From the NCBI GenBank assembly GCA_944382835.1, contig CALWNP010000012.1:1-60918 (forward strand): DNA of 60,918 nt. Direction: 5' to 3'. The DNA comes from an uncultured Gemmiger sp. (GTDB lineage: Bacteria > Bacillota > Clostridia > Oscillospirales > Ruminococcaceae). Below are positions 19,870 to 23,680 of this stretch, in pieces. Below the pieces are notes generated by a model. It was given only the letters and a program-made list of their open reading frames with translations. It had not been told where the DNA came from and searched no databases. A program made the position numbers and the translations under genes. Numbering within the stretch: the first letter of the stretch is position 1; each line of letters starts with the position of its first letter.

Positions 19870-22362
19870 ATGCAAGAATGGAGCTTCAACGACGACTGGC
19901 TGTTCACCGATCCGGCCGATGGCCGCCGGGCGGTGGTCACCCTGCCCCATGACGCCATGATCAACACCCCCCGGGACCCCAACACCAAACCCTACTTTCT
20001 CCTGGCCGGTTTCCACGGCTCGGATTACACCTATACCAAACAGTTCACCCCCGGCCCCCAGCTGGCGGGCAAGCGCCTCTTTCTGGAATTTGAGGCGGTA
20101 TACTGCATGTCGGAGATCTTTGTCAACGGGGTGAAGATGGCGGAAAAAGCCTACGGCTTTACCCCCTTCCATCTGGAGCTCACCGCCTGCCCCAGCTGGA
20201 ACCCTGCCGGGGAGAACCAGATCAAGGTGGTGGCCCATGTGCCCTACGACGGCCACGGCCGCTGGTACACCGGCGGCGGCATCTACCGGCCGGTGCACCT
20301 CTATGCCGGGGGCGAGGCCTGGATTTTGCCCCAGGGCCTCCGGGTCACCACCCTGTCCATCCATCCTGCCCGGGTCCGGGTGGAGGTGGAGTGCACCGGC
20401 GGCGAGGAGGTGGCCCTGTCTCTGGAGGATGGCGGCGCTGCGGTGGCCCGGGGCACCGCCCAGGTCCGGGAAGGCCGGGCGGTGTGGGAGACCGAGGTGC
20501 CCGACGCCAAACTTTGGGACGCCGAATCCCCCGCCCTCTACACCGTCCGGGCCGCCCTGCGGAAAGAGGGCCGGACGCTGGACACCGCCCAGGACACCTT
20601 CGGCATCCGCACCCTCAGCGCCGACCCCCAACAGGGCCTGCGCATCAACGGCAAACCGGTCTTTCTGCGGGGCGGCTGCATCCACAACGACATGGGGGTG
20701 ATGGGGGTCATCAACAACGATGCCACCGAGCTGCACCGGGCCCGCAAGATCAAGCAGGCGGGGTTCAACGCCATCCGCTCTGCCCACCATCCCATGAGCC
20801 GCAGCCTGATGAAAGCCTGCGACCAGGTGGGGCTGTATGTGATGGACGAGGCCTTTGACCACTGGTACCGGATGAAGAATCTCAGCCCCTATGTGGCCCA
20901 CTTTGAGGCGGATTTCAAAACCGATGTCCGGGCCATGGTCCGGGACGCCTACAACCATCCTTCGGTGCTGATCTACTCCATCGGCAACGAGATTCCCGAG
21001 GCCGGCAGCGTCAAGGGGGTGCGGATCGGCCGGGAGATTGTGGACACCATCCACGCCCTGGACACCACCCGGCTCACCGTCCTCTGCCCCAGCGTCCACT
21101 GGCTGCGGGAGTATCTGGAGGGCACCCCCTACCTCACCGAGGACGAAGACGAATGGATGGCCAAAGACCCCGCCAACAAGGCCAAAGACTGGCAGCACTA
21201 TGTCAAGATCTTCCTGGGGGCGGCGGCCAACCTGCCTGACGAGGAGAAAAATGACCTCTATCCCCCCACCTACCGCCGGGCCGACGAGGAAGCCACCAAA
21301 AACCTCTACCCCTATCTGGACCTGGCCGGGTACAACTACTACGAGGACAAGTACGAGATCCTGCACCAGCTCCACCCCGAGCGGGTGCTGCTGGGCACCG
21401 AGACCCGCTGCACCATGCTGGTAAACACCATGCGGTTTGCCCGCAGCCATCCCTATCTGATCGGGGACTTTGTCTGGACGCTGCAGGACCATCTGGGGGA
21501 GGCCAACTGCGGCAACCTCCACTACACCAAGGACGAAGACTACAAGGGCTATCCCTGGCTGATCAACTACGGCGGCGTCATCGACATCAACGGGCTGATT
21601 CTGCCCGCCATCCACCGCTTCGAGTTTGCCTGGGACCCCCAGAAGCACGGGCTGTACCTGGCCAGCCAGCCGCCGGTCCACGGCGGCAAGGCTCCGCTGG
21701 TGCAGAGCTACCGCTGGACCGACACGGTGGAGGGCTGGAGCTACGAGGGATATGACGGCCAGCCCACCTTTGTGGACGCCTACACCGATGCCGCCAGCGT
21801 GAGCCTCTTCCTCAACGGGGAGCCGGTGGGAAGTGCCCCGGTGGAGGACTACTTTGCCAAGATTCCCTGCACCTACCACCCCGGCACCCTCACCGCCGTG
21901 GGCTACGACGCCGACGGCCGGGAGCTCTACCGCACCACGGTGCACTCCGCCGACCCCGCCTCCACCCGTCTGGAAGCCCGGGCCGACCGCACCCGGCTGA
22001 TTGCCGACGGCCAGGACTTCGCCTTTGTGGACATCACCGTCACCGACGATGCCGGGATTCCCAAACTCCTGCCGGAACACCTGGTCAGCCTCGGGCTGGA
22101 AGGTCCCGGCCAGCTCCAGGGCTTTGGCAGTGCCTGGCAGAAAAACGACCAGCCCTACAACCTGCCCCGGCACAAAACCTGGCTGGGCCGGCTGCGGGCG
22201 GTGATCCGCACCAAACGGCAGCCGGGGGTGATCCGGGTGCATTTTGCCAGCGAAGGCTGCCGTCCGGTAACGGTGGAGCTGCATGCCGAGCCAGCAGGCG
22301 ACCCGGCCGCCCCCGGCGGAGGAAAGACGACGGATTGCCAAAACGGCCTTTCCGGGGTATAA
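19870..22362 (+). CDS. Glycoside hydrolase family 2 enzyme, second of pair
   Basis: 830 residues, intracellular, and of the same GTET subtype as the preceding gene. The substrate loop begins PHDAMI, the acid/base is Glu374 in SIGNEIPE and the nucleophile Glu511 in LGTETR. A C-terminal domain with VDITVTDDAGIPK resembles the Ig-like end of the GTET family. Paralogous to the neighbour but clearly diverged, so a different linkage is likely. AAGGAGG precedes the ATG. The stop codon lies inside the -10 box of the promoter of the next unit. Confidence 0.9.
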   Translation: MQEWSFNDDWLFTDPADGRRAVVTLPHDAMINTPRDPNTKPYFLLAGFHGSDYTYTKQFTPGPQLAGKRLFLEFEAVYCMSEIFVNGVKMAEKAYGFTPFHLELTACPSWNPAGENQIKVVAHVPYDGHGRWYTGGGIYRPVHLYAGGEAWILPQGLRVTTLSIHPARVRVEVECTGGEEVALSLEDGGAAVARGTAQVREGRAVWETEVPDAKLWDAESPALYTVRAALRKEGRTLDTAQDTFGIRTLSADPQQGLRINGKPVFLRGGCIHNDMGVMGVINNDATELHRARKIKQAGFNAIRSAHHPMSRSLMKACDQVGLYVMDEAFDHWYRMKNLSPYVAHFEADFKTDVRAMVRDAYNHPSVLIYSIGNEIPEAGSVKGVRIGREIVDTIHALDTTRLTVLCPSVHWLREYLEGTPYLTEDEDEWMAKDPANKAKDWQHYVKIFLGAAANLPDEEKNDLYPPTYRRADEEATKNLYPYLDLAGYNYYEDKYEILHQLHPERVLLGTETRCTMLVNTMRFARSHPYLIGDFVWTLQDHLGEANCGNLHYTKDEDYKGYPWLINYGGVIDINGLILPAIHRFEFAWDPQKHGLYLASQPPVHGGKAPLVQSYRWTDTVEGWSYEGYDGQPTFVDAYTDAASVSLFLNGEPVGSAPVEDYFAKIPCTYHPGTLTAVGYDADGRELYRTTVHSADPASTRLEARADRTRLIADGQDFAFVDITVTDDAGIPKLLPEHLVSLGLEGPGQLQGFGSAWQKNDQPYNLPRHKTWLGRLRAVIRTKRQPGVIRVHFASEGCRPVTVELHAEPAGDPAAPGGGKTTDCQNGLSGV

Positions 22363-22363
22363 T
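22335..22363 (+). promoter_or_regulatory. Promoter of the cobalamin riboswitch unit
   Basis: TTGCCA (22335-22340), 17-base spacer and TATAAT (22358-22363), close to consensus. Transcription would begin near 22370, exactly where the first riboswitch stem starts. The promoter overlaps the 3' end of the GH2 gene. Confidence 0.85.
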
Positions 22364-22369
22364 AGTACC

Positions 22370-22530
22370 CGCCTGAAAAGGAAACAGGTGGAAATCCTGT
22401 ACGAGCCCGTCGCCGTATCGCACATTTTCGCCGTCCTTCTGCCCGGTGCCGCAGCCGGGGACACGCCATTGGGACCCCTGGTCCCGAGAAGGTGAAGGAC
22501 GCCGTGCCCAGTCGGAATATTTTTCAGGCG
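22370..22530 (+). promoter_or_regulatory. Cobalamin (vitamin B12) riboswitch aptamer
   Basis: The outer P1 stem is perfect: CGCCTGAAAA (22370-22379) pairs with TTTTCAGGCG (22521-22530). Inside are the conserved core GGAAACAGGTGGAAATCC, an ACGAGCCCG block, the GTCCCGAGAAGG element and a B12-box-like CAGTCGGAATA just before P1 closes. Downstream, CCTCCC/GGGAGG (22534-22565) forms a P13-like hairpin; there is no U tract, so control of translation of the AAGGAG site at 22584 is more likely than termination. It should lower expression of the two genes below when cobalamin is plentiful. Confidence 0.9.
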
Positions 22531-22598
22531 CAACCTCCCGTGGACCGCGAGCACCGGTGGGGAGGAATTTCAACCAATCCAAGTAAGGAGACAAAACC

Positions 22599-23114
22599 AT
22601 GCGACTGAAAAATTGGAAACAATCCCTGTCGCTGCTGGTTTGCAGTGTGCTGATTGCGGCTCTGGCACTGATGGCAACCGGTTGCAGCGGCAACACCACC
22701 GACAGCAGCACCTCCAGCGCGGCTGCGTCCAGCGAGGTCACCTCCAGTGAGGCTGCCTCCAGCGAAGCCCAGCCTGCCAGCCCCGACACCGCCGCCTCCC
22801 AGGCTGCGGGCAACGTGCTGGGCCAGGGTGCCACCGCCTTCACCTTTACCGTGGTGGACGGTGACGGCAACGAAACCAGCTACCAGATCAACACCGACCA
22901 GACCACCGTGGGCGACGCCCTGGTGGAGCTGGGCCTGATCGCCGGCGACGAGAGCGACTACGGCCTCTACATCAAGACGGTGGACGGCATCACGGTGGAC
23001 TACGACACCGATGGCAAGTACTGGGCCTTCTATGTGGATGGGGAGTATGCCTCCACCGGCGTGGATTCCACCCCTGTCACCGCGGGTTCCACCTACACCT
23101 TCAAAGTAGAGTAA
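22599..23114 (+). CDS. DUF4430 lipoprotein, probable corrinoid-binding
   Basis: 171 residues. Signal peptide with lipid-modified Cys29 (LMATGC), a 50-residue Ser/Thr/Ala linker and a C-terminal DUF4430 domain (about 85-171) with TVGDAL and KYWAFYVDGEY motifs. DUF4430 is related to the small beta domain of intrinsic factor and transcobalamin, which bind B12. Being under a cobalamin riboswitch and one base before an ECF-type S component, it is inferred to catch corrinoids at the cell surface and pass them to the membrane protein. The domain assignment is by eye; binding is inferred. Confidence 0.82.
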   Translation: MRLKNWKQSLSLLVCSVLIAALALMATGCSGNTTDSSTSSAAASSEVTSSEAASSEAQPASPDTAASQAAGNVLGQGATAFTFTVVDGDGNETSYQINTDQTTVGDALVELGLIAGDESDYGLYIKTVDGITVDYDTDGKYWAFYVDGEYASTGVDSTPVTAGSTYTFKVE

Positions 23115-23115
23115 C

Positions 23116-23634
23116 TTGAAAGTCACGGTGAAGGAGACCGTCGTCTTCGGCATGCTGGGGGCGCTGATGTACGCCTCCAAGGTGCTGATGTCCATGCTGC
23201 CCAACGTCCATCTGCTGGGCGTCTTTGTGGTGGCGATGACGGTGGTCTATCGCAAAAAGGCCCTCTACCCCATCTACACCTATGTGCTGCTCAACGGGCT
23301 GATGGCAGGGTTTGCCCTGTGGTGGCTGCCCTACCTCTACCTGTGGGCCATCCTGTGGGCCTGGGTCATGCTGCTGCCGCGGCGGATTCCGGCCAAGGTT
23401 CAGCCTCTGGTGTACATGGTGGTCTGTGCGGCCCACGGCTATCTCTTCGGCACCCTGTATGCCCCGGCCCAGGCCCTGCTCTTCGGGCTGGACTTCCATG
23501 GCATGATCGCCTGGATTCTGGCCGGGCTGCCCTGGGACTTTGTCCACGGGACCAGCAACTTTTTCTGTGGGATTCTGATTTGTCCCCTGATTGCGGTGCT
23601 GAAAAACGCCGACAAATACACCGGTATTCAATGA
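23116..23634 (+). CDS. ECF transporter S component, predicted cobalamin
   Basis: 172-residue membrane protein with five to six helices and the short ECF S-component opening KETVVFGMLGALMYASK. It begins with TTG one base after the DUF4430 stop, so translation is coupled. S components bind the vitamin and use a shared EcfAAT energising module encoded elsewhere; no EcfA or EcfT gene lies in this window. The riboswitch makes cobalamin or a corrinoid precursor the probable substrate (CblT/CbrT-like). A GTG four codons further is another possible start. Confidence 0.82.
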   Translation: MKVTVKETVVFGMLGALMYASKVLMSMLPNVHLLGVFVVAMTVVYRKKALYPIYTYVLLNGLMAGFALWWLPYLYLWAILWAWVMLLPRRIPAKVQPLVYMVVCAAHGYLFGTLYAPAQALLFGLDFHGMIAWILAGLPWDFVHGTSNFFCGILICPLIAVLKNADKYTGIQ

Positions 23635-23642
23635 AAAAGACG

Positions 23643-23680
23643 GGACATCCTCCCTTTGGGGAGGATGTTCCGCCTTTTTT
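23643..23680 (+). terminator. Terminator after the S-component gene
   Basis: Stem GGGACATCCTCCC/GGGAGGATGTTCC with a TTTG loop, followed by CGCCTTTTTT. Ends the B12 unit nine bases after its last stop codon. Confidence 0.9.

Follow-up and report, generated by a model that had tools for sequence, protein, structure and literature searches.

A compact transcription unit at positions 22335-23680 of the forward strand of contig CALWNP010000012.1, a stretch of 60,918 nucleotides from an uncultured Gemmiger sp. (order Oscillospirales, phylum Bacillota; assembly GCA_944382835.1) that is referred to here as the window, consists of a promoter, a cobalamin aptamer, a gene for a lipoprotein with a DUF4430 domain, a gene for an S component of an energy-coupling factor (ECF) transporter and a terminator. 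From its B12-type regulation and the family membership of its two proteins, we consider it likely that this is a cobalamin-controlled uptake unit, in which corrinoid would be bound by the lipoprotein and relayed to the S component. In the proposed course of events, low intracellular cobalamin would lead the aptamer to permit expression of the two genes. The lipoprotein, tethered outside the membrane, would then capture cobalamin or a related corrinoid through its transcobalamin-beta-like domain, as homology and regulation suggest, and the tight pairing of the genes points to a hand-over to the CbrT-type S component. The latter may dock on a shared EcfA-EcfA-EcfT module, found elsewhere in the genome, and the imported corrinoid could serve a B12-dependent methionine synthase, for which a MetH-like gene is present. 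Vitamin B12 is an object of competition in the gut, and how Gram-positive bacteria living there capture it is poorly defined.

An earlier sequence-only reading of the window had described a near-consensus promoter starting right at a cobalamin aptamer, followed by two genes one base apart, the first for a lipoprotein with a domain related to the beta domain of intrinsic factor and transcobalamin and the second for an ECF S component, and had proposed from these a two-part B12 relay of a little-described form. The description of the unit was borne out by the searches reported below. As to the relay, the control by B12, the homology to the beta domain and the CbrT type of the S component speak for it, whereas the suggestion that it was new in kind did not stand.

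The aptamer was matched by Rfam family RF00174 at 22357..22542 of the + strand with 42.5 bits (gathering score 31.5, E 2.3e-7). The sigma-70 type promoter in front of it (22335..22363, +), TTGCCA-17-TATAAT, agrees with the consensus at 11 of 12 positions and lies within the 3' end of the upstream gene for a glycoside hydrolase family 2 (GH2) enzyme, which occupies 19870-22362 in the list of open reading frames; it is the only promoter of such quality between 22250 and 23760, where shuffled sequences contain 0.3 on average. As the -10 box (22358-22363), which overlaps the GH2 stop codon, takes up bases 2-7 of the RF00174 match, the riboswitch RNA probably starts near 22370, the first base of the P1 helix, rather than at the start of the Rfam match. 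RNA folding placed the two strands of P1, joined by 11 pairs, at 22370..22380 and 22520..22530, and a hairpin, CCTCCC/GGGAGG, at 22534..22565, between P1 and the ribosome-binding site, where it is a candidate expression platform. The CCTCC run of this hairpin could pair alternatively with AAGGAG (22585..22590), the likely ribosome-binding site of the lipoprotein gene, and control of the unit at the level of translation is plausible from this arrangement. No + strand terminator was called from 22250 to the lipoprotein gene, so that read-through from the GH2 gene is possible.

The lipoprotein gene (22599..23114, +) encodes 171 amino acids, with a signal peptide, a lipobox-like ATGC whose Cys29 is encoded at 22683-22685, a Ser/Ala-rich linker and a C-terminal DUF4430 domain. 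The gene for the S component (23116..23634, +; 172 amino acids) starts with TTG at 23116, one base past the TAA of the lipoprotein gene (23112-23114), and an intrinsic terminator (23641..23680, +), formed by a stem at 23641-23672 and a following T run, closes the two-gene unit. Throughout the genome (2.5 Mb in 83 contigs, completeness 90.88%) there was one match to the cobalamin aptamer and one to DUF4430, both of them in the unit, which is flanked by the GH2 enzyme and an asparagine synthetase. A BtuCD-type unit was considered and rejected, since there is neither a protein of the BtuF kind nor an adjacent permease or ATPase, the only proteins being the DUF4430 protein and the S component.

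Conservation of the pair was assessed with A1, a profile of 35 homologues of the S component that all come from DUF4430 loci of the order genomes. In 147 genomes of the order A1 gave 94 matches, 48 of which scored at least 150 bits, with the next at 74 bits, and the 48 include all 35 training genes. A same-strand DUF4430 match by Pfam lay no more than 460 bases upstream in 43 of these 48, and A2, a profile of 32 homologues of the lipoprotein built from linked genes, added four of the other five, giving 47 of 48 and leaving a single high-scoring S locus, L093, without DUF4430. Thirteen of the 48 are outside the A1 training set, and 12 of these are linked to DUF4430, eight by Pfam and four solely by A2. 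The two reading frames overlap or are separated by no more than 6 bases in 33 of 34 close pairs of the order that were compared, the distance being 395 in L053, with start codons assigned mechanically. A second set, hereafter the named loci, consists of the best 80 of 572 confirmed relatives found with A5, a sub-alignment of the same S set; DUF4430 is directly upstream in 79 of these 80, with L217 as the exception. They include Gemmiger, Roseburia inulinivorans and Eubacterium plexicaudatum, and the closest named relative among them is Candidatus Gemmiger avistercoris, with 84% identity in the S component, which makes a Gemmiger-like host probable. The pair is thus conserved and widespread in this group, and is looser outside the order.

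The survey of such pairs behind cobalamin aptamers, which the sequence-only reading had proposed, gave a riboswitch of the cobalamin type upstream in 34 of the 48 order loci, 23 of these 34 being above an Rfam gathering score. RF00174 was found within 2 kb upstream in 25 of the 48, and in one more (L103, 36.8 bits) under laxer filters; three of these 26 (in genomes G061, G087 and G137) are below the gathering score. In eight further loci of the order (L057, L058, L060, L061, L066, L089, L098 and L100) a short class II-type element lies upstream of DUF4430. Seven of the eight were listed by Rfam as AdoCbl-II with 23.5-31.4 bits and E values of 0.0016-0.61 (gathering score 36.5), while that of L061 was recognised by a shared motif and added to the alignment, all eight being sub-threshold in Rfam. 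The element is well conserved among the eight and may possibly be a variant that current models undercount. Loci L033-L092 were picked by hand from DUF4430 and riboswitch lists and are thus a non-random sample, from which L074 and L075, of 10 bases each, were left aside.

For the named loci, a clade-specific riboswitch model, R2, was built from 11 training rows that include the window's own, the rows representing 10 of the 80 named loci; both R2 and a further model, R1, match their own training rows by construction, and the 190.4 bits at which R2 scores the window are the score of such a row. R2 found an element in 54 of the 80 named loci, and in 50 of these it scored at least 100 bits; the element is always in sense orientation, with its end 482-866 bases away from the S gene that follows. 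Rfam, run on 18 of the 80, placed 11 of the 18 above a gathering score. The proposed structure is also upheld by covariation in relatives: in an alignment fitted to the tested structure, 55 distinct sequences were paired in 93.8% of cells, with 33 of 43 pairs altered on both sides, while none of 500 shuffles equalled the observed value and slid structures paired in at most 44.2% of cells. Starting from the other partner, we considered 150 listed DUF4430 matches of the order, out of a total of at least 150, in a riboswitch scan with stricter filters. Among the matches listed, 65 of 150 had a same-strand cobalamin riboswitch at most 8 kb upstream, as against 1 of 150 with one on the other strand or downstream, and the association between riboswitch and DUF4430 therefore exceeds chance. 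Two tandem elements of the cobalamin type precede a single DUF4430-S unit in L193 (2789-2904 and 3277-3480) and in L198 (1014-1137 and 1475-1677).

The sequence-only reading had further held that a consistent pairing of DUF4430 with unrelated vitamins would speak against it. In the loci run through Rfam (sets of 20, 20 and 15, the 18 named loci at gathering score only, L219 and 8 of the 80 named loci), no DUF4430-S pair was preceded by a riboswitch for another vitamin in sense orientation. Vitamin-type riboswitches other than those for cobalamin amounted to one for thiamine pyrophosphate on the opposite strand in L093 and an antisense one for tetrahydrofolate in L147.

The lipoprotein matches DUF4430 (PF14478) in Pfam with 36.8 bits against a cut-off of 23.8, the domain covering residues 102-170 (22902..23108, +), and its nearest solved relative is 3u7z of Ruminococcus gnavus (E 4.6e-13). 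When A2 was compared with the PDB, 3u7z was matched at E 2e-33 and transcobalamin-1 at E 6.2e-5, the match to intrinsic factor (E 0.29) not being significant. An AlphaFold2 model of the domain, with a predicted local distance difference test score (pLDDT) of 94, was submitted to Foldseek, and the 19 matches at E <=0.001 were two chains of 3u7z and 17 chains of transcobalamin, haptocorrin or intrinsic factor, including the isolated transcobalamin beta domains 5no0 (apo) and 5np4 (with bound cyanocobalamin). Homology of the lipoprotein domain to the beta domain of transcobalamin and intrinsic factor is supported by the profile and by the predicted structure. A beta domain by itself can evidently hold corrinoid, because cobalamin bound to the separately expressed transcobalamin beta domain was removed only by extensive washing, according to a passage of PMC5599065. 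A loose lipobox pattern was present in the lipoproteins of 66 of the 79 named relatives, and the window protein is predicted to be secreted or anchored at the surface.

It could be envisaged that the lipoprotein carries no corrinoid at all and acts as an accessory subunit, keeping the S component or the S-ECF complex stable or in position, with B12 bound from the medium by the S component alone. The L. delbrueckii complex used for B12 uptake in E. coli was described as CbrT, EcfT, EcfA and EcfA', with no lipoprotein, in passages of PMC5997447, and both the very tight coupling of the two genes, as in the 33 of 34 close pairs, and the absence of an alpha/alpha toroid from the unit would suit such a role. 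The structural matches of the domain at E <=0.001 are nevertheless, besides 3u7z, all B12 carriers, and in two loci (L034 and L035) a cobalamin riboswitch is followed by a DUF4430 protein with no S component found in the stretch examined, so that the domain appears to be useful without a neighbouring S component. We therefore regard a purely accessory role as quite unlikely. A bolder form of the relay is that the two proteins make up a split B12 receptor, in which the S component would take the place of the toroid and would close, together with the tethered beta domain, on one corrinoid from both sides; the unit, together with larger operons in which beta domain, toroid and a dedicated ECF module occur under cobalamin riboswitches, would then be a living relative of the ancestral form of animal B12 carriers. 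This extension seems to us unlikely on present evidence; if it is true, the ECF importer would have a protein of its own for capturing the corrinoid and acting as a lid. A search of the open-access literature found no test of B12 binding by the surface DUF4430 protein.

For the S component, A1 matched chain A of 6fnp in the PDB at E 9.7e-23, the only match at E up to 1. This structure is ECF-CbrT of L. delbrueckii, a proven importer of cobalamin and cobinamide in which CbrT has a dissociation constant of about 9 nM for cobalamin, as given in passages of PMC5997447. The window protein had no match in Pfam or NCBIfam, and an AlphaFold2 model of it has six helices (pLDDT 88). The CbrT type of the S component is supported by the match of the family profile, on which its identity rests, the match of the single sequence and the matches of the fold, both given below, being weak. 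The same evidence bears on the possibility that the lipoprotein binds a metal ion, namely cobalt, and that the unit imports cobalt for corrin synthesis. The deposited title of 3u7z, which could not be verified, is 'putative metal binding protein', and cobalamin riboswitches can control cobalt transporters, as stated in a passage of PMC11477304. In contrast, CbrT is the only PDB chain matched by the S family, the other close structural matches of the domain bind corrinoids as B12 carriers, and CobS was not found in the genome; the metal-binding reading is not favoured on these grounds and appears extremely unlikely.

The uptake of corrinoid fits the context of the host genome in several respects. 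One B12-binding domain (100.6 bits) was found in a long open frame that, as translated, appears to encode a MetH-like methionine synthase. A CbiQ-family match (176 bits) on contig C26 is preceded by two frames that read as ABC-ATPase-like and followed by one that reads as TruA-like, and this cluster is likely to be the shared EcfA-EcfA-EcfT module; two further CbiQ-family matches occur elsewhere in the genome. As a MetH-like gene is present and CobS was not found in the genome at its completeness of 90.88%, the organism looks like a user of B12 that is unable to finish its synthesis, in a genome that is about 91% complete.

Instead of complete cobalamin, the unit could import a corrinoid precursor or a lower-ligand fragment (cobinamide, dimethylbenzimidazole or alpha-ribazole), for which the lipoprotein would be specific. 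B12 riboswitches can also control precursor salvage, which counts in favour of this possibility, and CobS is required to complete cobalamin from such precursors. Cobinamide is accepted by CbrT besides cobalamin, as passages of PMC5997447 report, and is bound by the transcobalamin beta domain, as does a passage of PMC5599065. In contrast, the lack of a CobS match in a genome about 91% complete, and a transcobalamin-type beta-grasp domain that points to corrin and not to a free base, make fragment import very unlikely.

Several results weigh against the proposed relay of corrinoid from lipoprotein to S component, or restrict its reach. On the side of the S component, the window sequence alone matched CbrT (6fnp_A) only weakly, at E 0.038, as its sole PDB match, and its model gave no Foldseek match at E <=0.001, 6fnp not being among the 50 listed; the best-ranked hits were the S components PanT (template modelling (TM) score 0.54) and RibU (TM 0.60), weak at E >=1.1. 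The window protein also lacks the alpha/alpha toroid that forms half of the site in transcobalamin, a separate toroid elsewhere in the genome not having been searched for. Two FecCD-type importers are present in the genome, with scores too low for the cut-off of any listed family, including BtuC. As for the pairing, the 46 lower-scoring S matches of the order had DUF4430 within 12 kb upstream in 22 cases and a riboswitch within 15 kb in 14, and in a survey of 249 genomes of the phylum 9 of 20 S loci, that of the window included, showed DUF4430 within about 1.5 kb upstream. With regard to the riboswitch, no cobalamin type was found in 14 of the 48 order loci, and R2 gave no hit in 26 of the 80 named loci, four of which had less than 800 bases upstream; Rfam at E up to 1, applied to 8 of the other 22, found no riboswitch, Roseburia inulinivorans included. 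Among the DUF4430 matches listed, 85 of 150 were without a same-strand cobalamin riboswitch within 8 kb upstream, and the domain may therefore serve other ligands too. L073, a locus of the window's own family in which DUF4430, the S component, MTHFR and a sub-threshold methionine synthase activation domain follow one another in a row, comes from a genome (G031) without an RF00174 match.

The claim that such a system was little described has to be corrected in view of three published accounts. Burroughs et al. named a transcobalamin-like clade of the SLBB superfamily, with bacterial toroid fusions, in 2007 and predicted that transcobalamin-like proteins at the cell surface, encoded in operons with CbiO- and CbiQ-like genes, scavenge B12, as passages of PMC1796856 set out. 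In the unit described here, by difference, the domain is of the beta type only and the lipoprotein gene has a single CbrT-type S gene as its partner; neither 'riboswitch' nor 'S component' is used as a term in the main text of that paper. The CbrT cluster of L. delbrueckii was given as nrdJ-cbrS-cbrT-pduO in a passage of PMC5997447, and cbrS, we infer, encodes a DUF4430 protein. The two systems are alike in S components that the profile places in one family, in the neighbouring gene cbrS and in a shared ECF module, whereas the window unit has its own promoter, aptamer and terminator and neither nrdJ nor pduO. Finally, a DUF4430 protein of L. rhamnosus (LGG_02295, also LRHMDP2_2713 or K8Q211), whose gene adjoins that of the B12-dependent reductase RtpR (rtpR/nrdJ), is given the name 'additional lipoprotein component of putative cobalamin ECF transporter' in a passage of the proteome paper PMC9963975. 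Because the 2007 prediction, the L. delbrueckii cluster and the L. rhamnosus label were already in print, the unit is a well-supported member of a predicted kind and no new category. What is added here is the link to the riboswitch, the finding that in this group the lipoprotein is strictly paired with an S component of the CbrT type, and the counts. In the open-access papers found to name both DUF4430 and cobalamin, the word riboswitch was not found.

The lipoprotein shares the fold of the beta domain with human transcobalamin, haptocorrin and intrinsic factor, and sequence similarity with transcobalamin-1. The human carriers, however, hold toroid and beta domain in one chain and act via receptors, whereas the toroid is missing from the window unit, larger bacterial relatives having toroid matches. 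As in BtuF-BtuCD, capture outside the cytoplasm would be followed by an ATP-driven importer, with other folds and another class of transporter. BtuG of Bacteroides, which belongs to an outer-membrane system, resembles the proposed role of the present protein in being a surface lipoprotein for B12.

In larger bacterial relatives the toroid occurs in the same setting. L077 carries, in order, a riboswitch (37.1 bits), a 572-residue protein without clear family, a secreted-looking toroid protein (alpha/alpha toroid PF00432, 26.6 bits against a cut-off of 26.5), a DUF4430 protein (72 bits), a double ATPase, an S component and a likely EcfT without a Pfam match. In L079 a single protein behind a riboswitch of 125 bits carries DUF4430 and a sub-threshold toroid match. 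All of L076-L079 are riboswitch-led with DUF4430 proteins, toroid matches being present in L077, L078 and L079 (sub-threshold in the last two), and in L076-L078 there is also an S component, along with frames taken as ATPases from a match or from a reading of the sequence. As these relatives combine toroid and DUF4430 under cobalamin riboswitches, the two kinds of domain that sandwich B12 in the human carriers recur together in bacteria. L073, mentioned above, and L219, described below, likewise place DUF4430 and the S component near B12-related genes, and these neighbourhoods, like that of rtpR in L. rhamnosus, count in favour of the relay.

Other arrangements of the domain were also seen. 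In L219 of Subdoligranulum variabile, on a replicon recorded as plasmid 4, a unit of AdoCbl riboswitch (55.3 bits, gathering score 50), DUF4430 and S component adjoins RACo, an activator of corrinoid proteins, and a PocR-type AraC regulator is also beside the unit. In L056, L064 and L071 a DUF4430 lipoprotein stands beside a frame that reads as a phosphoglycerate-dehydrogenase-like protein, with no riboswitch at E up to 1. Gut-1 RNA was matched on both strands at 192-373 of L100, close to the 3' side of its DUF4430-S unit, one of the matches being over the gathering score and the other under it.

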